The position numbers and the translations under genes were made by a program. A DNA stretch of 21,197 nucleotides from a virus. The stretch spans positions 1-21,197 of the IMG/VR virus record IMGVR_UViG_3300028772_000071, one strand, 5' to 3'. Shown here piece by piece: positions 4,112-20,663 of the stretch (position 1 is its first letter; every line of letters begins with the position of its first letter). Under the pieces are notes generated by a model. The model searched no databases. It had not been told where the DNA came from and saw only the letters and a program-made list of their open reading frames with translations.

Positions 4112-4330
4112 ATGAATTATGACAAAATGCCAAGCAGGGGCAAAATAACTTCTGATGGAGAATGGGCTAAGGATTGTGGTTGCGGTGGCAAAGCCTATGT
4201 CTTTTATGATGAAGATGCCACATACAATGTTGAATGTGAAAATTGCGGTACAGTTCTCAGGCTTATAACATCAAGCTTGGATGGGGCAATAAAGTTTTGG
4301 AATAATACATTAGAAGTTGGAGGTAATTAA
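4112..4330 (+). CDS. Lar-like restriction alleviation / zinc ribbon protein
   Basis: The 72-residue protein has the layout of the Lar family: a zinc knuckle with Gly-Gly (DCGCGG, Cys22 and Cys24), a beta hairpin, a second knuckle VECENCG (Cys42, Cys45), and the closing SxDGAIKFWN motif (residues 55-64). Lar of the Rac prophage modulates host type I restriction, so an anti-restriction role is possible but inferred. The first knuckle is CGC where the family usually has CPFC. Two in-frame ATGs exist. GAGGTG at 4099-4104 is well spaced for ATG 4112 and too close for ATG 4106, so 4112 was chosen. Its stop directly precedes the next ATG. Confidence 0.7.
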   Translation: MNYDKMPSRGKITSDGEWAKDCGCGGKAYVFYDEDATYNVECENCGTVLRLITSSLDGAIKFWNNTLEVGGN

Positions 4331-4588
4331 ATGAGTGCTGAAATAGTAATGGGAAACCTTGTTATGTGTAATATATGCCATAAAAGAATAGCCACAAAAC
4401 TATGTGATATGCCTGTTAGAAGAACAAAAAACTTTCACATAAAGATTAATGGAATGACAGATACAAATTTGAGCTTTAAAGAATATACCGCAACTTGTGA
4501 CAAATATATCTGCGACAAATGTGCTGCAGAAGTTGGAAACGGAATACACTTTTGCAAATCGTGTATGTCAAAGCTAAAAAGGGTATGA
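4331..4588 (+). CDS. Cys-rich zinc-binding microprotein (85 aa)
   Basis: Eight cysteines form paired knuckles: CNIC (13-16), Cys25, Cys56, CDKC (61-64) and CKSC (75-78). This suggests two structural zinc sites separated by a hydrophilic beta-rich segment. The family is not recognised. The start follows the Lar-like stop codon directly, with GGAGG 5-10 bases upstream, so the two are probably translated together. The stop overlaps the next start (ATGA). It could bind nucleic acid or a host protein; the sequence does not say which. Confidence 0.75.
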   Translation: MSAEIVMGNLVMCNICHKRIATKLCDMPVRRTKNFHIKINGMTDTNLSFKEYTATCDKYICDKCAAEVGNGIHFCKSCMSKLKRV

Positions 4589-5183: not shown

Positions 5184-5504
5184 ATGAAAAGAGCAGAGAT
5201 ATATTGGGTAGACTTAGGGGAAACAGTAGGTAGTGAACAGAGGAGATGTAGACCATGCTTAATAATACAAGCCAATTTAGGTAATGCAACCTCGCCTACA
5301 GTAACAATTGTTCCAATAACGTCTGCTACCAAGAGTTTCACGATAACTCATGCCCCAGTAGATGGTCTTATTAAACCATCAATAGCATTATGTGAGCAGA
5401 TAAGAACAGTTGATAAGAAAAGAGTAAAGGGTTATATTGCTACGGTAAGTGATTATACTATGATTAATATATCTGAAACAATAAGGTTGACATTAGGCTT
5501 ATAA
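5184..5504 (+). CDS. MazF/PemK-like mRNA interferase, no antitoxin gene visible
   Basis: The 106-residue protein has the full MazF fold pattern: RAEIYWVDLGETVGSEQR at the N-terminus, the basic RRCRPCLIIQ strand (20-29) with the conserved Arg-Pro, the VPITSATK loop (44-50) carrying Ser/Thr of the active site, and ALCEQIRTVDKKRV (68-81). MazF enzymes cut single-stranded mRNA at short motifs and are normally held by a MazE antitoxin encoded just upstream. Upstream here is only a gene remnant and a consensus promoter, so no partner is visible. The promoter for the next genes lies inside its 3' end. It may act in host mRNA shut-off or be controlled by a host antitoxin; both are inference. Confidence 0.85.
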   Translation: MKRAEIYWVDLGETVGSEQRRCRPCLIIQANLGNATSPTVTIVPITSATKSFTITHAPVDGLIKPSIALCEQIRTVDKKRVKGYIATVSDYTMINISETIRLTLGL

Positions 5505-5756: not shown

Positions 5757-7535
5757 ATGGAAAAGCAATTATTAGATTCTAAAACATTAGTGGAGGATTA
5801 TTTATTCAATAAAGATTGGAGGACAAAAGAAAATTCAAACGCACCTAGAAGTTTTGGCTCGCTCAATAAATATATAATTGGAGAAGTTAGTAAAAACTAT
5901 TGGTTGAATGAAGTATACAATAAAGAAATAAAATGTGCATATCTTAATGGTGATTTTCACATCCATGATTTAGGGGCATTAACATTATACTGCGTTGGAT
6001 ATTCATTAGAAAACATACTATTAATGGGGGTACAAGGTATAAGTAATATACCAGTATCAAGTCCACCTAAACATTTCAAAAGTGCTTTATCACAAGTTGT
6101 AAATTTGGCAACAGTATACCAAAATGAACAAGCTGGAGCAGTAGCATTCAATTCCGTAGATACGTTATTAGCACCTTTTATACGAGAAGATGATTTGGAT
6201 AAAATCCAAGTTAAACAAGAATTACAGAATTTTATATTTGCCTTAAATAGCAATTCAAGAATGGGGGCAGAACCAGCATTTACAAATATAACATTAGATA
6301 TAACTCCTTCACCAGATATGTTGCGTAAAAATATAATCATAGGTGGAGATTATAGATTGGATGTATATGGTGATTTTCAAAAGGAAATGGATTTATTTAA
6401 TGAATGTTTTGCTGAAATAATGCTAGAAGGAGATAGTAAGGGTCAGCCATTTTCATATCCAGTATTGACTTATAATATAGGAAAGAGATTTGATTGGAAT
6501 AATCCTAAAAATGATAAAATATTTGAAATGGCTGGTAAGTTTGGATATCCATATTTTTCAAATTTTATAAATTCTGAAATGGATGAATCTGATATAAGAA
6601 GTATGTGCTGTAGACTTAGATTAGATTTAACCGAGTTAAGAAGAAGAAATGGTGGATTATTTGGAGCAGGAGATTCAACTGGTTCAATTGGTGTAGTGAC
6701 TCTAAATATGCCTAGAATAGGTTATATATCATCAAATGAGATTGAATTTTTTAATAAACTAGATATTATATTGAATTTAGCAAAAGATTCATTAGAACTC
6801 AAACGAGTATTCTTGCAAAATGAAGTATTGGATGGTGGATTAATTCCAGCTTATTCTCAATATGTTGGAACGATTGATAATCATTTTAGCACTATTGGTA
6901 TAATTGGGTTTAATGAAATGTGTGAAAACTTTTTAGGAAAAGACATACTATCAATAGAAGGTAAAGAGTTCTCCGTAAAAGTTGGTGAATATATCTTAAA
7001 TAAAATAAAAGAATTTCAAGTAGAAACTGGTCATCTATATAATTATGAAGCATCACCTAGCGAATCAACTTGTTATAGACTGGCTAAAAAAGATAAAGAG
7101 TTATTTCCCGATATAATAACACAAGGTAATTCAGTTCCATACTACACTAATTCTTCTCATATACCAGTATCCAAAGTAACTACTATCAATGATATGATGG
7201 CACATCAAGAAGCTTTACAAGTTCAATTTACTGGAGGATGTGTAAATCATATATATTTAGATGGAGCAATATCTGGTGAACAAGCTAAACATATGGTTAA
7301 AACTTGTTTAACAAATTATAGAAATCCATATATAAGCCTTTCTCCAGTAAATAGATATTGTCCAGAACATGGTTATATTGAAGAACGAGTTGAAAATTGT
7401 CCTAAGTGTGGTATGAAGTTGGATATTATGCAACGCGTAACTGGTTATTTAAGGAAAGTTGAAAATTTCAATGATGGTAAAAAAGAAGAATTTTATGATA
7501 GAAAACAATTTAATGGTATAATTGATTTAAAATAA
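5757..7535 (+). CDS. nrdD: Anaerobic (class III) ribonucleoside-triphosphate reductase
   Basis: This 592-residue glycyl radical enzyme reduces ribonucleoside triphosphates to deoxynucleotides without oxygen. The catalytic domain starts almost at once (DFHIHDLG at 67-73, Cys79), so the usual N-terminal ATP-cone is missing. The active-site loop reads SMCCRLRLD (Cys284-Cys285) where formate-type enzymes have a PMGC-like motif. The C-terminus has a zinc site, CPEH at 535-538 and CPKC at 548-551, with one Cys replaced by His. The radical loop RVTGYL has Gly563. ATG 5757 is 3 bases after the redoxin stop, and nrdG follows after 56 bases. Loss of the ATP-cone predicts no overall dATP shut-off, which would suit a phage. 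The DNA looks more A+T-rich than its neighbours, though this was not computed. Confidence 0.95.
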   Translation: MEKQLLDSKTLVEDYLFNKDWRTKENSNAPRSFGSLNKYIIGEVSKNYWLNEVYNKEIKCAYLNGDFHIHDLGALTLYCVGYSLENILLMGVQGISNIPVSSPPKHFKSALSQVVNLATVYQNEQAGAVAFNSVDTLLAPFIREDDLDKIQVKQELQNFIFALNSNSRMGAEPAFTNITLDITPSPDMLRKNIIIGGDYRLDVYGDFQKEMDLFNECFAEIMLEGDSKGQPFSYPVLTYNIGKRFDWNNPKNDKIFEMAGKFGYPYFSNFINSEMDESDIRSMCCRLRLDLTELRRRNGGLFGAGDSTGSIGVVTLNMPRIGYISSNEIEFFNKLDIILNLAKDSLELKRVFLQNEVLDGGLIPAYSQYVGTIDNHFSTIGIIGFNEMCENFLGKDILSIEGKEFSVKVGEYILNKIKEFQVETGHLYNYEASPSESTCYRLAKKDKELFPDIITQGNSVPYYTNSSHIPVSKVTTINDMMAHQEALQVQFTGGCVNHIYLDGAISGEQAKHMVKTCLTNYRNPYISLSPVNRYCPEHGYIEERVENCPKCGMKLDIMQRVTGYLRKVENFNDGKKEEFYDRKQFNGIIDLK

Positions 7536-13667: not shown

Positions 13668-13997
13668 GTGGATACTAATAGATTAAAGGTCATGCTAAAT
13701 GAGGTATCTGACATAAAAGGTAAACGAAAAGCTATGAATTATTGGTTTAGGTGTGAATGTGAAAAGTTAAAACCAACTACTGTAAATTGGTGGTTGGGAA
13801 CTTCACCTAAAATACTTGACAGAGTTATTATAGATGTGTATAATGAATATGTAGAGTATTGTCATGTAAAACACAAAAGACCATTCAAAAGGACAAAGTT
13901 TGGAATTGAAATGACATCGTTTGGATATGTGTCAAAGGTAAAAACTATAAAAGGTGCAAATTACCGAGTGTATGATAAAGTTACAGATTACAATTAA
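13668..13997 (+). CDS. Stand-alone D5-type C-terminal winged-helix protein
   Basis: The start is GTG 13668, chosen because GAGGGTG lies 8 bases before it; a TTG 18 bases upstream has no site. The 109-residue product resembles the last 80 residues of the primase/helicase at 760. VIIDVYNEYVEYCHV matches SVNDVYLAYQVWCVQ, and VSKVKTIKGANYRVYDKV matches VSKPKTIQGKSVRVYVRE. In the helicase this winged helix is thought to bind DNA; here it lacks the ATPase. It sits directly upstream of a repeat-bearing non-coding region and the small terminase gene, so it could bind DNA there as a regulator or origin factor. That role is inference. Confidence 0.65.
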   Translation: MDTNRLKVMLNEVSDIKGKRKAMNYWFRCECEKLKPTTVNWWLGTSPKILDRVIIDVYNEYVEYCHVKHKRPFKRTKFGIEMTSFGYVSKVKTIKGANYRVYDKVTDYN

Positions 13998-14364
13998 ATT
14001 ACAGACCAGTTACAAGTTGAATTGAAATCAGTACAATGATTGGTATCACTGGGTTACAACTACTATTATAATTTTAATATATTAAAAAGGTTGTAACCTT
14101 CTGTAATTATTGATATGACTGGATGGAGCATATATATTACTATATAATACAACTATTTCTTCTAATAAAAAGTAATATAAAGTAATATATAAATGATATA
14201 TATAGAGAATAGGAAAGTTGCGTAATCTGTAATTTGAAATTTAAAGAATTAAGCTATTACTTGCTTGCGAGGATTTCAAAAATTACAAAATTACAGAACG
14301 ATTTTCGACTATTCTAATTTTCGACCAAAACGGTTATAGTATTACTGAAAAGGAGTTGATATAA
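13998..14364 (+). other. Non-coding region upstream of terS; candidate packaging site or regulatory region
   Basis: No gene fits in these 367 bases. They contain a 9-bp inverted repeat GGTTACAAC/GTTGTAACC within 14050-14100, four copies of the octamer AATTACAG (+ at 13997 and 14289; reverse at 14101 and 14227), and ATTTTCGAC twice (14301-14309 and 14317-14325, 16 bp apart). A very A+T-rich tract spans 14130-14210. cos and pac sites often lie beside or within the small terminase gene, so this is a reasonable place to look for one. Confidence 0.5.
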
Positions 14365-14886
14365 TTGGCAAATAAAGGAATTCATACTTCGCCAGAAACT
14401 GCTGGTATACAAAATATGCCACCAAATTATCCAGATACACATAAAGATGATTTAGGAACAATGAAAGGCTTAATGCCTATATGGAACAGAGGATTTCAAA
14501 ACAGAGAGAATTATAAAGGCCTTTGGACTCCAGAAACTTTGAAAATGGAAATTAATGCCTTTTTTGAATATTGTTTCGATAATGAAGTCAAACCAGCTAA
14601 AGTGGGGCTATCACTATGGTTAGGGGTTACGAAACAAACTTTATGGGTTTGGGAAAAAGAATCTACGGATTTCAAATCTGACCTTATAAGATGGGCAACA
14701 TCATTAATTGAAATGTCTTATGTGGGCAGAGCCGAGAAATACCCAACTGCAAACATATTCTTGCTAAAATCATCTCATGGTCATGTTGAAACTTCCAGAT
14801 TGGATGTAGTTGCGACAAATGAGCAGATGCAGACTGATGAAGTACAAGACAGAATTGCACAACTTGGACTAGATAAGCCTAAATAA
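14365..14886 (+). CDS. terS: Terminase small subunit
   Basis: The 173-residue protein has the layout of a DNA-recognising small terminase. After a polar N-terminus (about 1-45) comes a helical helix-turn-helix-like part with TPETLKMEINAFFEYCFDN and VGLSLWLGVTKQTLWVWEKE (around 80-100). A helical region suited to oligomer formation follows, then a polar tail. It should bind the packaging site and load the large subunit. The start is TTG 14365, supported by AAAGGAG at 14349-14355. The gene is followed by its own terminator and is separated from terL by 4.2 kb, which is unusual because the two are normally adjacent. Confidence 0.8.
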   Translation: MANKGIHTSPETAGIQNMPPNYPDTHKDDLGTMKGLMPIWNRGFQNRENYKGLWTPETLKMEINAFFEYCFDNEVKPAKVGLSLWLGVTKQTLWVWEKESTDFKSDLIRWATSLIEMSYVGRAEKYPTANIFLLKSSHGHVETSRLDVVATNEQMQTDEVQDRIAQLGLDKPK

Positions 14887-14894
14887 TGTAAATT

Positions 14895-14917
14895 GCACTC
14901 AGAAATGGGTGCTTTTT
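14895..14917 (+). terminator. Rho-independent terminator after terS
   Basis: GCACTC (14895-14900) pairs with GGGTGC (14907-14912, one G-U pair) around AGAAAT, followed by TTTTT. It separates terS from the downstream non-coding region. Confidence 0.85.
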
Positions 14918-15210
14918 CTATGCCCAGAAATAATAGGGGTAGAGTGGTCAAAATAGGCATTTTTACGATGGGGCTATAGGCTGATTCCCAGACTTGATAT
15001 TTTGATTTGCTCAACGGAGAGCATAGGGAAATGTGTTCAACGTATACTTTGTTCACTAAGGGGGTAAAGTCGCTTAGAATGGCTCTAAATCGCATAAATA
15101 ATCATTCTCCGTTAGACCTACTTTCAAACTCTATAGGTTTATGTGAAAGTTTACTTTCAAACTCTATGGGTTTTTACTTTCAAACCCTATATGTCTATGA
15201 CTGGATGTGC
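14918..15210 (+). other. Non-coding region downstream of terS, possible structured RNA
   Basis: No convincing gene is present; a 90-codon frame from TTG 15007 lacks a ribosome binding site and is made partly of repeats. An 8-bp inverted pair AACGGAGA (15013-15020) and TCTCCGTT (15106-15113) encloses about 85 bases, and short direct repeats follow at 15119. A structured RNA or a protein-binding region are both possible. Confidence 0.4.
15119..15196 (+). repeat. Three direct repeats of about 22 bp (TACTTTCAAACYCTAT)
   Basis: Copies start at 15119, 15152 and 15175. The first two match at 21 of 22 positions; the third diverges in its last third. In copy 2, AAACTC can pair with GGGTTT around TAT. 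CTTTCA (15121) and TGAAAG (15144) also form an inverted pair. Confidence 0.8.
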
Positions 15211-15427
15211 GAATGTTTCGAAAATTGTGAATCTTCTGAATATTGTGAATGTTTTGAATTTTCAGACAATTCAGATTAGTGTGGGTTGTGCGAAATGTTC
15301 AAACAATTCAAACAAATAGAACAAATGAAATAATTCAGAATATTGTGAATGTTCGGAATGGTACGAACGTTCGTGTTTTTTCCAATAATTCGAATAGTTC
15401 ATACAATTCAAACAATATATCGAATTG
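15211..15427. repeat. Array of about 23 degenerate 9-bp units (GAATRTTC-like)
   Basis: The stretch can be cut into successive 9-base units with one 1-base slip at 15337: GAATGTTTC, GAAAATTGT, GAATCTTCT, GAATATTGT, GAATGTTTT, GAATTTTCA and so on to AAACAATAT. Most begin GAAT, GAA or AAA, and many end in TTC or TTG. An exact 16-bp piece, GAATATTGTGAATGTT, occurs at 15238 and again 100 bp later at 15338. The array runs up to the DnaA boxes. Confidence 0.75.
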
Positions 15428-15450
15428 TGTTGTTGGAGGTAGGTTTTGGA

Positions 15451-15506
15451 TTGGATAACTACCCTGTGGATAACTCTGTGGATAAGTATCATAAATCTGT
15501 GGATAA
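15451..15506. other. Cluster of three perfect DnaA boxes: candidate replication origin
   Basis: TGTGGATAA, the complement of the DnaA box TTATCCACA, occurs exactly at 15465-15473, 15477-15485 and 15498-15506, all in one orientation. Starts are 12 and 21 bp apart, close to whole helical turns. A related TTGGATAA lies at 15451-15458. The cluster sits between an A+T-rich repeat array and a strong promoter. Confidence 0.7.
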
Positions 15507-15512
15507 AATATG

Positions 15513-15541
15513 TTGACATTATATACTATGGATGTTATACT
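15513..15541 (+). promoter_or_regulatory. Consensus promoter next to the DnaA boxes
   Basis: TTGACA (15513-15518), 17 bp, TATACT (15536-15541). It starts 6 bases after the last DnaA box, so bound DnaA would touch or block the polymerase. It drives the small genes from 15599. Confidence 0.85.
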
Positions 15542-17290: not shown

Positions 17291-17351
17291 TATTATGCCC
17301 TATTATTGCATACTAATTGTATGTATAGTGTACACAATGCACACTAATCTG

Positions 17352-17486
17352 ACTATTCATAATATTATTAATTATTTTAATTGTTTCGTTTGTACGAATT
17401 GTTTGATTTGTTTTAATTGTTTAAACAATGGTGAATTGCGTGAATATTCATACCCCTCCCACTATTCAGAATATTCTGACAATGAC
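17352..17486. repeat. Second array of degenerate 9-bp units
   Basis: The sequence divides into 9-base units: ACTATTCAT, AATATTATT, AATTATTTT, AATTGTTTC, GTTTGTACG, AATTGTTTG and onward. AATTGTTT recurs exactly at 17379, 17397 and 17415, 18 bp apart each time. It contains perfect palindromes ATTGTTTAAACAAT (17416-17429), TGAATATTCA (17441-17450) and TCAGAATATTCTGA (17466-17479). Confidence 0.65.
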
Positions 17487-17652
17487 TAATCAGTCCCATT
17501 ACCAACTTCTAAATTTTCTGAACAGTTTTAGTGACCTCAAAAAATTCTCGGAAAATTCTATAACAGTTTTTGCAAGTTACCGACAAGTTAGCAAAGCCAG
17601 TTATATCAATGGTTGTAGGGTTATGAATTAGTAGCAAATTAGTAGTTGCAAG
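17487..17652. other. Remaining non-coding sequence between array 2 and the minus-strand genes
   Basis: No gene is seen. AATTAGTAG occurs twice in a row at about 17625-17645, and the stretch lies downstream of the minus-strand operon, where its terminator would be expected; no clear hairpin plus T-run (in minus-strand reading) was found. Confidence 0.4.
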
Positions 17653-17987: not shown

Positions 17988-18016
17988 ATTATACCATATA
18001 GGATAGGTAATGTCAA
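17988..18016 (-). promoter_or_regulatory. Consensus promoter, minus strand
   Basis: Reading the reverse strand: TTGACA (18016-18011), 17 bp, TATAAT (17993-17988) with ATGG before the -10. It drives the two minus-strand genes. Confidence 0.85.
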
Positions 18017-18122: not shown

Positions 18123-18878
18123 ATGATAGTGCATAAATTTGGTAGGGATGTTGACCATATAAATCTGTATTCGCTGGGAGATTTGCATATAGGTTCTAGT
18201 GAGTTTTCATTGGAACAGTGGTATAAGTGGAAAACCAGAGTTATGGAGGATGAATTTGGATATATAGTAGTTTTAGGTGATTTAATGGACAATGGTTTAA
18301 AGAATAGCAAGACTGATTGTTTTGGAGCAACTATGCGACCAAGAGAGCAAAGAGAATGGCTTGTAGAGGAACTTAGACCGTTAAAAGATAAGATATTATG
18401 TATAACCAGAGGAAACCATGAAAAAAGGTCGGCTGACTTATCAGATGATTGTCCCATTTATATAGTGGCTTGTATGCTAGGTATAGAGCATTTGTATCGT
18501 GAGAATATGTGTTTTGTCAAGGTATCTTTGGGTGACAAGAATAAAGAAAGGCAGTATTCTTATGGAATAGCAGTTGGACATGGCTCGTCAAGAGGTAAGG
18601 CTAAAAATTTCAGCTATTCAATTGACAGCATGGATGTATTTTTTACTGGTCATACTCATACTCCAGAGGAAAGTTATCCAGCTAAACTGGTTATGGACTT
18701 GAGAAATGAAACTGTAGCACAAGTAGGCTTTATACACATGATAGTGCCAAGTTTCTTGGAATTAGGTGGGTATGCCCTTGCTGGGATGTATATGCCCACA
18801 GACTTTAGAAGGATACCATATGTATCGTTGCTTGGAACAAAGAAACAAATAGATGTACACAATTTAGGGGGGATGTAG
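18123..18878 (+). CDS. Calcineurin-like metallophosphoesterase
   Basis: The 251-residue protein has all five metallophosphoesterase motifs: GDLHIG (Asp20, His22), LGDLMDNGL (Asp53), GNHE (Asn98, His99), VGHG (His153) and GHTHTP (His177, His179). It should bind two metal ions and cleave a phosphoester; the substrate (nucleic acid, nucleotide or protein) is unknown. The ATG at 18123 has a poor ribosome binding site. AGAAGGG at 18092-18098 would suit an in-frame ATT at 18105 giving an N-terminus xLKDYEM, so a rare ATT start is possible. It heads the packaging block. Confidence 0.88.
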   Translation: MIVHKFGRDVDHINLYSLGDLHIGSSEFSLEQWYKWKTRVMEDEFGYIVVLGDLMDNGLKNSKTDCFGATMRPREQREWLVEELRPLKDKILCITRGNHEKRSADLSDDCPIYIVACMLGIEHLYRENMCFVKVSLGDKNKERQYSYGIAVGHGSSRGKAKNFSYSIDSMDVFFTGHTHTPEESYPAKLVMDLRNETVAQVGFIHMIVPSFLELGGYALAGMYMPTDFRRIPYVSLLGTKKQIDVHNLGGM

Positions 18879-18879
18879 G

Positions 18880-19122
18880 ATGGATATTAGAAATATAATG
18901 ATTTTGTTTGATAAAACTAAATTTACAAAAGAGGAAATAGTAGCTGAATTAAAAGCTGAAGGTTATAAGCATAATTTCATATTTGCGAACAAGATAGATT
19001 TGGATTATGCGAAAGATTATATGCGAAAGTGTGAAGAAGTGTGGTGCTTCGGTGACTGTGAAGAAATGTTTATGTATATGATGGCAACAGATGAAGGTAT
19101 GGATATATGGACAATGGGTTAG
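18880..19122 (+). CDS. Small phage protein (80 aa)
   Basis: The start lies one base after the metallophosphoesterase stop, behind GGGGGG. The product begins MDIRNIMILFDKTKFTKEEI and has a helical KDYMRKCEEVWCFGDCEEMF segment rich in Met, Cys and acidic residues. It overlaps the start of terL by 16 bases, so it belongs to the packaging operon. It is not recognised as a family member. Confidence 0.65.
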   Translation: MDIRNIMILFDKTKFTKEEIVAELKAEGYKHNFIFANKIDLDYAKDYMRKCEEVWCFGDCEEMFMYMMATDEGMDIWTMG

Positions 19123-20663
19123 AATTAACTAAAGTAGAGGAATTGGTGAAGGTGGTAATACCTAATCTTGAAGATGAACTTTCAAGAGAGGGTGTTGCCC
19201 CTTCTGACCTTGTAGAATTATATAACCTCTATGTGGAAGTATTGAGAATGGTTGCTCCATATGATTTTGTTTCTTATAACAAATATCTAGAATTGGATGA
19301 AGACCATTCGTCACCAACTAAAGCATTTTATCACCACAGGAAAAAGCACCTAGCTGAAATGTTTGAAGCTTTTAATGATATGGAAACTTACGATAAGTAT
19401 GATGTATTATTAATTTCACTTCCTCCAAGAACTGGTAAGACCACTACTGGTATACGGTTTTTGTCTTGGATTATAGGAAAGTACCCAGAGCATACTGAAA
19501 TGGCAACTTCCTATTCAGATAGTATAACAACTTCCTTTTATATGGGAGTCATGGAGATAATTCAGAACCCACGATACAATGAGATATTCCCAGATGCTCC
19601 ACTTGTATCACAGAACGCAAAAAGGGAAGAAATCTGGTTAAAGGTGGCAAAGAGATATCCATCTATAACCTTTGTTCCTATTGGTGGTTCAATGACTGGT
19701 AGATGTGAAGCTGGTAAGTATTTGTATTGCGATGACTTGGTGTCTGGTATTGAAGAAGCACTTTCAATTACTAGACTTGATAAATTATGGCAGATGTATA
19801 CAGTTAACTGTAAACAGAGAAAGAAGGATAAATGCAAGGAAGTACATTTGGCTACAAGATGGTCTGTCCATGATGTAATCACTAAACTTGGAACTGCACA
19901 TGAGGATAATCCTCGATGCAAGGTTATTAATGTATCGTGTTATGACGAGAACGAGGAAAGCCAATTCGACTTCTTAGGTGGTTTTGGAACTGATTATTAC
20001 AAGGACTTAGAAACTACAATGGATGAAGCCAGTTTTGGAGCATTGTATAAACAAGAGCCTATAGAACGAGAAGGATTATTGTACCATAAAGAGGACTTGC
20101 AGTATTTCTTTGACCTTCCAGAAGAACCAGCCGATTCAATCGTTGCGATATGCGATAGTAAGAACATGGGTAAGGATTTTGTGTCTGCTCCTATTGGATA
20201 TGTATATGGTGATACTGTATATATTGATGATGTGACTTATAGTAATGCCCTTCCAGATATAACTAGACCAATGGTTGCTAATAAATGGGTAGAGCATAAA
20301 GTAGTTCGTGCTGATGTAGAGGTGAACAATGGTGGCAACTACTATGCCGAGGATTTGGATGAACTAATTAAAGCCAAAGGTGGTAGAACCAGTATTAGGA
20401 CTTTCTTCAGTAGCAATAACAAGCAAGTAAAGATTATAACATATGCTGATTATGTTGTGAAGCATTTCGTGTTCAAGCATCCTAGTAAATATTCACCGAA
20501 TAGTCAATATTCCCAATTTATGAAAGATATGCTAAAATGGACACAAATGGGTAATAATAAACATGACGATAGTGTTGATAGTATTGCGATGTTGGCACAA
20601 TTAGTGCAATCATTATCAGATGGACAGATTAAGTTTTTAGACCGTAGAAAATTAGGAATATAG
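19107..20663 (+). CDS. terL: Terminase large subunit (ATPase and nuclease)
   Basis: The 518-residue protein is the packaging motor. The ATPase domain has Walker A LPPRTGKT (105-112), Walker B YLYCDD (206-210) and the coupling motif ATRW (249-252). The RNase H-like nuclease follows, with AICDSK (Asp350), VEVNNGG (Glu405) and KHDDSVDSIAML (Asp487 and Asp488 region). It translocates DNA into the procapsid through the portal encoded next and cuts the concatemer. ATG 19107 overlaps the previous gene by 16 bases; the overlap and lack of a better start support it. Its partner TerS is encoded 4.2 kb upstream. Confidence 0.95.
   Translation: MDNGLELTKVEELVKVVIPNLEDELSREGVAPSDLVELYNLYVEVLRMVAPYDFVSYNKYLELDEDHSSPTKAFYHHRKKHLAEMFEAFNDMETYDKYDVLLISLPPRTGKTTTGIRFLSWIIGKYPEHTEMATSYSDSITTSFYMGVMEIIQNPRYNEIFPDAPLVSQNAKREEIWLKVAKRYPSITFVPIGGSMTGRCEAGKYLYCDDLVSGIEEALSITRLDKLWQMYTVNCKQRKKDKCKEVHLATRWSVHDVITKLGTAHEDNPRCKVINVSCYDENEESQFDFLGGFGTDYYKDLETTMDEASFGALYKQEPIEREGLLYHKEDLQYFFDLPEEPADSIVAICDSKNMGKDFVSAPIGYVYGDTVYIDDVTYSNALPDITRPMVANKWVEHKVVRADVEVNNGGNYYAEDLDELIKAKGGRTSIRTFFSSNNKQVKIITYADYVVKHFVFKHPSKYSPNSQYSQFMKDMLKWTQMGNNKHDDSVDSIAMLAQLVQSLSDGQIKFLDRRKLGI

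Follow-up and report, generated by a model that had tools for sequence, protein, structure and literature searches.

Nine-bp repeat arrays in a phage fragment and its relatives as candidate runs of overlapping operators for the host regulator CodY

Results and discussion

Genomic setting of the two arrays

The window, meaning here the whole stretch of 21,197 nucleotides that was analysed, is a phage fragment in which the gene of the small terminase subunit lies 5' of a first array of 9-bp repeats (array I), and the genes of an exonuclease-like phosphoesterase and of the large terminase subunit lie 3' of a second one (array II). The small subunit gene, TerS (14365 to 14886, plus strand), is the upstream neighbour of array I and was annotated as DNA-packaging gp3-like (Pfam PF16677, 1.8e-09; PHROG 606, terminase small subunit); a terminator-like hairpin follows it on the same strand (14895 to 14912). 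Three ACTTTCAAACYCTA-like repeats (15119 to 15199, plus strand) lie 5' of array I itself (15203 to 15427, no strand assigned), whose units, about 24 of 9 bp each, fall into two registers separated by a single 1-base slip. Three perfect DnaA boxes, TGTGGATAA, starting at 15465, 15477 and 15498 (15465 to 15506), stand between the array and a sigma-A type promoter (TTGACA-17-TATACT with TG, 11/12; 15513 to 15541, plus strand) located upstream of a block of small genes. Array I is flanked by the terminator-like hairpin on one side and this good promoter on the other, its end being 86 bp from the -35 element.

Array II (approximately 17310 to 17490) has the same 9-bp period and is situated between two convergent 3' ends. 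Its best boxes, at 17461 and 17470, are 9 bp apart, and two further CodY-like boxes with two mismatches each lie beside it (17512-17526 and 17543-17557). A 12/12 promoter of the sigma-A type (17988 to 18016, minus strand) precedes a small minus-strand frame reading towards the array. The first large gene past this site encodes a calcineurin-like phosphoesterase / DNA repair exonuclease (18123 to 18878, plus strand) and is followed by TerL, the large terminase subunit (19107 to 20663, plus strand; PHROG-type annotation).

Two other features of the fragment were recorded on the way. Repeats of another type (TTACAG/CTGTAA), accompanied by an AT-rich stretch, are found upstream of TerS at 13975-14300 of the window and again at 41430-41650 of the longer record G001, at the place called site III below, the word TTGATATGACT being common to both stretches; and a PemK/MazF-type toxin gene is found near an anaerobic ribonucleotide reductase gene (window 5184-5504 and 5757-7535).

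Periodicity of the arrays

An earlier note on this DNA had described 15211-15427 as an array of 9-base units with a single slip, and autocorrelation against dinucleotide-shuffled sequence agrees with it: identity at lag 9 is 0.601 over this interval, compared with a shuffle mean of 0.288 (z 10.0, 0/1000 shuffles). The harmonics at lags 18, 27 and 36 exceed the shuffles as well (z 7.0, 5.2 and 4.3), and a scan in 150-base windows places the top 9/18/27 signal of the whole fragment at array I. The slip is visible in the boxes, which step by 9 over 15212-15284 and resume in the right half at 15294 instead of 15293. The 16-mer GAATATTGTGAATGTT, noticed earlier at 15238 and 15338, does recur 100 bp apart, with no further copy on the same strand of the window. 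A cyclic 9-state model assigned 18 of the approximately 24 units and left 15301-15332 and 15401-15427 as background. Array II had been overlooked; over 17363-17490 its lag-9 identity is 0.521 vs 0.312 (z 5.2, 0/1000).

Coding was examined as an explanation at both sites and rejected. Array I is crossed by frames of 90 aa (15007-15279, plus strand) and 82 aa (15271-15519, minus strand) and array II by one of 64 aa (17295-17489, plus strand), none with a match to a Pfam family, and array I is probably non-coding, as previously supposed. Array I itself contains a terminator-like hairpin with T run (GAACGTTCGTGTTTTTT; 15344-15375), and the hairpin's word is nearly repeated in the array of a relative (L006, about 4222-4239).

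Likeness of the unit to overlapping CodY boxes

CodY is a regulator of Bacillota that senses GTP and branched-chain amino acids. The unit of the arrays, GAATNTTCN with period 9, corresponds to AATNTTCNG read on, and CodY boxes overlapped by 6 nt yield exactly a 9-bp GAAnnTTCn repeat. In the excerpts of PMC10415144 on which we rely, CodY binds a 15-nt pseudo-palindrome, AATTTTCWGAAAATT, and the overlap typical of natural operators is 6 nt, i.e. a 9-bp step; two CodY dimers bind overlapping boxes cooperatively in that register only, affinity dropping when the overlap is altered by one or two bases and cooperativity being lost when it is altered by two, and binding is reduced at 25/26 nt. The same excerpts describe three overlapping boxes at ureA and a proposal of longer CodY oligomers. 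The earlier statement that no standard feature type explains the array is therefore wrong in our reading, overlapping CodY boxes explaining both the unit and the period, and the earlier idea that the array might suit a DNA-coating protein is supported.

The best CodY box of the window, AATTTTCAGACAATT (15257 to 15271; 19.4 bits with the matrix described below), has a single mismatch; the next closest start at 15230, 17512 and 17543 with two mismatches each, the first of these being AATCTTCTGAATATT (15230 to 15244; 16.2 bits). The left part of array I carries CodY-like boxes in register at 15212, 15221, 15230, 15239, 15248 and 15257 (1-5 mismatches), and further in-register boxes occur on the right at 15294, 15330, 15339 and 15348 (3-5 mismatches). 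From 15303 on the period is kept, but 11 of the 14 in-register 15-mers are 6-12 mismatches away from the CodY box. Over the window, 15-nt boxes within 5 mismatches of AATTTTCWGAAAATT are above chance, and pairs of boxes with at most 4 mismatches show the 6-nt overlap: five pairs are spaced by 9 bp and none by 8, 10 or 11. In the relative G2, five such pairs are spaced by 9 bp and three by 10.

CodY operators of Bacillota (e.g. Bacillus subtilis hutP and ureA) have, in the excerpts of PMC10415144, the same AATTTTCWGAAAATT box, 6-nt overlap and 9-bp register, and they tolerate weak boxes inside overlapping runs, as does the phage array. The operators named there consist of two or three boxes and serve host metabolic genes, whereas the phage array holds up to six boxes (1-5 mismatches) inside about 24 units, at two to three places of the genome. 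Fur operators differ from CodY-type arrays in sequence and register. The parallel drawn between Fur and CodY in those parts of PMC10415144 concerns a regulator that oligomerises on overlapping sites.

Conservation in relatives of the window's phage

The record G001 (G1; 52,555 bases) extends the window, its TerS and TerL being 99% and 100% identical to those of the window. Protein searches recovered three diverged relatives, G2 (L088/L014), G3 (L006/L093) and G4 (L011/L090), and a pattern search a fifth lineage, G13 (L116); relatives have TerL about 64-80% and TerS 42-46% identical to those of the window's phage, and are referred to with it as group A. The search in related phages suggested in the earlier note did find the same array. 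At site I, after TerS, it is present in 5/5 lineages, G2 having a short version with only a few boxes. At site II it is present in five of the seven lineages with DNA available there; in G3 the 9-bp period is present with no box reaching 10 bits, and upstream of the exonuclease of L012 and L092 there is neither a CodY match of at least 10 bits nor a strong 9-bp signal. This count leaves out L091, with only 32 bases upstream, and L094-L104 (exonuclease identity 21-35%), none of which has a box cluster. At site III, in the gap that separates the structural block from the early block, a double box, AATCWGAATAGTCTGAATATTC, occurs in G1 and G2, both lineages readable there. The placement of these three sites suggests that the arrays mark borders of transcription units. 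Repeats like ACTTTCAAACYCTA also precede the array in G2, G3, G4 and G13, as well as site III of G1 and G2.

The three DnaA boxes beside array I bring in another reading, in which the array would be a set of replication origin iterons; G2 likewise has one perfect DnaA box at site III, and short direct repeats near DnaA boxes are a trait that the phage array shares with such iterons. The boxes reported in the earlier note do exist and all three are perfect, but they are not conserved with the array: in the array I region G2 and G13 have none, and G3 and G4 one imperfect box each. Cumulative GC skew, read every 2 kb on records that may be incomplete, has no clear turning point, rising throughout G1 and in G2 with a small dip (3514 to 3508) near the end. 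The arrays also lie at two to three places per genome, their unit is that of a host operator, and the word occurs in unrelated phages as well. After a check of the DnaA boxes in five lineages and of the GC skew, an origin was rejected as the main explanation, and the strand-separation element proposed earlier is not supported; as relatives keep the array and not its DnaA boxes, this reading is weak, and we hold it to be extremely improbable.

As regards the host, a blastn query with the locus matched no phage, a TerL search of bacterial genome contigs found no relative, and among 391 Clostridia genomes TerL homologues, distant only, were found in 18. Shine-Dalgarno-like sites precede 25 of the 39 long ATG frames of G1 (random 0.061), a frequency compatible with a Bacillota host without proving it. 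The TerL of L006 (8113-9894) is interrupted at the Walker A motif by a long insert that includes a LAGLIDADG-like domain and is thus probably an intein.

Specificity of the match to the CodY box

The CodY candidate was chosen after sight of the unit, out of several known regulators, and the match was evaluated in several ways. In a letter-order test, 105 palindromes with the composition of the CodY box were compared by their counts at up to 2 or up to 4 mismatches. At the stricter threshold the CodY order ranks first of 105 in the window (4 occurrences; next 2; median 0), and it also leads in G4, G8, G9, G10, the pieces of DH5 and TPWB06 and the terminal repeat of Bacillus phage P59. It shares first place in G2, G11, G12, G13 and the piece of Twort, and comes second in G1 (4 vs 5) and G3 (1 vs 3). 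With the seeds masked, it is first or tied first in nine of ten phage sets, the exception being G3, where no CodY box with at most 2 mismatches is left. The threshold of 4 mismatches is not discriminating, the CodY order failing to come first in 7/10 phage sets and ranking 13/105 in the window. The window, G2, G3 and G4 were obtained from protein homology only, and G13 by pattern search; G8-G13, P59 and DH5 were recovered by array-like queries, so that their box excess is partly a matter of selection. G4 consists of two cuts of one contig, L090 (12,324 bases) being used in the order and permutation tests and L011 (14,125 bases) in the location test.

The second evaluation used a CodY matrix built solely from 63 Streptococcus salivarius sites of Table 1 of PMC5966866, which are predictions made in that paper for genes affected in a codY mutant and not footprints. 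The eight best 15-mers of the window (10.9-19.4 bits) are all in or beside arrays I and II, and no 15-mer of at least 10 bits was found elsewhere in the window. Column-permuted matrices equal the array count in 8/1000 cases for array I and 3/1000 for array II. For whole records at 10 bits, they reach the count in 7 (G1), 33 (G2), 2 (G3), 14 (G4) and 0 (G13) of 1000 permutations; the 8-bit threshold is not discriminating, 129/1000 permutations reaching the count of the whole window and 320/1000 doing as well in G2. With a fixed background, the matches of at least 10 bits lie inside array-bearing intergenic DNA in 7/7 cases in the window, 6/8 in G2, 3/6 in G3, 5/6 in G4, 10/10 in G13 and 8/13 in G1. 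When six typical 15-mers of the phage arrays were searched as text in 5.39 million full texts, the sole match was the paper on the S. salivarius CodY regulon, and 15257-15271 of the window is letter for letter AATTTTCAGACAATT, listed in the table of PMC5966866 as a predicted codY operator.

Boxes in unrelated phages and other replicons

A search with the array pattern gave 27 stretches: five of group A, seven other array-bearing ones and 15 isolated matches. The other array-bearing loci are L111/L122 (L111 in G8), L113 (G9), L040/L132 (L040 in G11), L136 (G12) and L127 (G10), among which G9, G11 and G12 form one group by blastp. In an all-against-all blastp of ten records (frames of at least 45 aa), no protein was common to all array-bearing groups. 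Group A and G10 share an exonuclease, a dUTPase-like and a lysin-like protein, and group A and G12 a tail protein (all named by position or by eye), and P59 has two small proteins of unknown function in common with individual members of group A. A phage-encoded binder was rejected on this result and on the lack of any CodY helix-turn-helix domain encoded in 12 phage records, which also means that the binder would be the host's. Binding by the 13668 product or the primase, which the earlier note put forward for testing, is not supported, given that blastp detects no protein of the other array-bearing groups throughout group A.

In five lineages (window, G2, G3, G4 and G13) both arrays are located between TerS and TerL, as would fit a pac/cos packaging site to which the small terminase subunit binds. 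The same word is, however, found beside TerS proteins only 42-46% alike, and it occurs in G8-G12 and P59, where blastp returned nothing related to the TerS or TerL of the window; the third site, moreover, is far off, at the late/early border. A TerS packaging site was rejected on the ground that TerS relatives are restricted to group A and the word is not confined to phages with a cognate TerS, and we regard this explanation as highly improbable.

A 109-base composite of the units matched 54 of 50,697 phage records, of which 47 are named after Bacillus (37), Staphylococcus (8) or Streptococcus (2), a proportion that depends on the make-up of the collection itself. Most of the matches among those listed have an E value of about 0.3, and seven extend over 80% or more of the query. 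One strong match, TPWB06, is labelled as an Arcanobacterium phage and shares DNA with Staphylococcus phage DH5. In Bacillus phage P59 (bases 1-146060) the reversed pattern occurs twice and the box, with up to 2 mismatches, 46 times; most of the boxes lie in the terminal repeats, and the figure of 46 partly counts twice since there are two such repeats (21 boxes in one of them). By the same count, boxes and reversed pattern stand at 10/6 in DH5 and 8/6 in TPWB06, and there is little or no excess in SPO1 (2/7), A511 (4/0), phiEF24C (5/3), G (25/20) and Twort (3/6), the sequences of DH5, TPWB06 and Twort being pieces of 4-8 kb. The comparison phages gave 2/4 (T4), 3/3 (P-SSM2), 2/2 (Acj9), 6/17 (CP220) and 3/1 (Aeromonas 65). 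No clear excess was present in four of seven named Bacillota phages (SPO1, phiEF24C, G and Twort), and CodY boxes are therefore a trait of some phages, not of all Bacillota phages. The strict array pattern gave 55 stretches in viral contigs, mostly coding repeats as judged by eye, and plasmids gave 3 weak matches in 72,556 records. A small gene immediately before array II of G2 (L110, about 4205-4507; G002 44205-44507) is weakly similar by blastp (33% over 51 aa, E 2.6e-5) to P59 11802-12059, a gene just before a box cluster of that phage.

Look-alike arrays in Bacteroidales

In genome contigs the array pattern gave at least 119 stretches, and the 80 listed among them are mostly from Bacteroidales, many from the rumen. 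These 9-bp arrays, (TCNGANTAN)n, occupy intergenic as well as genic DNA; the corresponding Bacteroidales/Prevotella loci (L137-L216, e.g. L153 4693-5625, L180, L191, L207 and L213) contain many that are degenerate and self-complementary. In-frame (TCNGANTAN)n also occurs within the N-terminal part of four-helix-bundle (23S_rRNA_IVP-like) proteins, by Pfam in L153 and by the same motif in L174, L185 and L213. A separate element, TTTCAGAATATTCWGAATATTCGGAACATTGAT, is common to two Methanoculleus genomes and one Euryarchaeota MAG (L148 6648-6667, L194 6972-6991 and L215 2709-2728).

The CodY helix-turn-helix domain is absent from two tested genomes, one Prevotella and one Bacteroidaceae MAG, and present in two others, which we take to be Lachnospiraceae. 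The Bacteroidales arrays resemble those of the phages in their period of 9 and their GAATATTC-like palindromic word, and their existence means that CodY is not needed for 9-bp arrays of a similar word to arise. They differ in being found inside genes as well and in their conserved columns, TC.GA.TA., which the phage array does not have. In 33 Bacteroidales loci, chosen by their visible arrays from the 80 listed of at least 119 stretches and with the seed masked, the CodY order comes second with 2 occurrences vs 14 for ATTATTCWGAATAAT.

These arrays bear on the alternative that another DNA-binding protein of host or phage, with a similar half-site (GAA-NN-TTC in a 9-bp register), binds the phage arrays in place of CodY. 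It is favoured by the same period and a similar word in Bacteroidales, two tested genomes of which lack CodY, and by the part of array I that keeps the period and not the full CodY box. On the other side, the CodY-trained matrix and the letter order single out the phage arrays and not those of Bacteroidales, and the search for a protein shared by the array-bearing groups found none; we consider such a binder unlikely.

Position of the boxes relative to promoters

In the terminal repeat of P59, four of the 24 TTGACW promoters have a box that ends 28, 28, 28 and 27 nt upstream of the -35 element. In G8, 14 of the 44 promoter-like sites have a box 0-60 nt upstream, six of them at a gap of 18 nt and three at 27-28 nt. 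Box centres at the gaps of P59 and G8 fall near -61 and -71, the positions at which class I activators sit, as known from CRP. Promoters of group A have no fixed box spacing such as that of P59 and G8, with 0-2 scattered cases per record. The fixed spacing in P59 and G8 argues for control in cis in those phages, and the position of array II fits titration better. In the 38.6-kb record G008 (L256), many early genes between 700 and 13300 are preceded by at least one CodY-like box with a strong promoter at a fixed distance, and many of the boxes are flanked by CGGC/GCCG.

The arrays could also be conceived as a selfish or slippage-born satellite of palindromic 9-mers devoid of function, given the 16-mer that recurs 100 bp apart, the variable array length among relatives (short in G2), the two of seven lineages without boxes at site II and the similar Bacteroidales arrays even inside genes. 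We judge this very unlikely in view of the arrays kept at the same borders in lineages whose TerS are 42-46% identical, of the boxes matching a known operator and of the fixed distances between box and promoter in P59 and G8.

A candidate link between phage and host nutrient state

Our preferred reading, held with moderate confidence from sequence comparison, is that the array is a run of overlapping candidate operators for the host CodY repressor, used at the borders of phage transcription units. The close match of the arrays to the CodY operator implies that the phage may read or soak up the nutrient signal of its host. Nutrient-loaded host CodY would nucleate on the strong boxes (15257 and 15230 in array I, 17470 and 17461 in array II) and then spread along the weaker in-register units, so that the use of block borders, for example of the promoter at 15513, would be tied to the nutrient state of the host. 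CodY might in this way affect the small-gene block, the early block or the host pool of CodY, and as copies of the phage multiply, the arrays would also draw CodY off host promoters.

More tentatively, it is possible that several unrelated phage groups, at least some of them infecting Bacillota, have independently gathered arrays of host CodY operators. These would act either by wiring the GTP/amino-acid sensor into phage transcription, with boxes near -61/-71 in the manner of a class I activator, or as a sponge freeing host amino-acid genes from repression. CodY operators are already known; in the literature searched, phage genomes that carry them as long arrays are apparently undescribed: no paper joining CodY boxes with phage genomes was found in the open-access literature, to which the search was confined (subscription papers being outside its scope), and the CodY passages of PMC8235301, PMC11984713 and PMC5730154 do not concern CodY sites in a phage.

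If the preferred reading is true, the phage would read a central nutrient signal directly through its DNA, with no gene of its own, and the arrays would be the longest CodY operators known to us, suited to the study of CodY oligomers. A single purified protein and a single DNA fragment would then suffice to test the link between host starvation and phage development.
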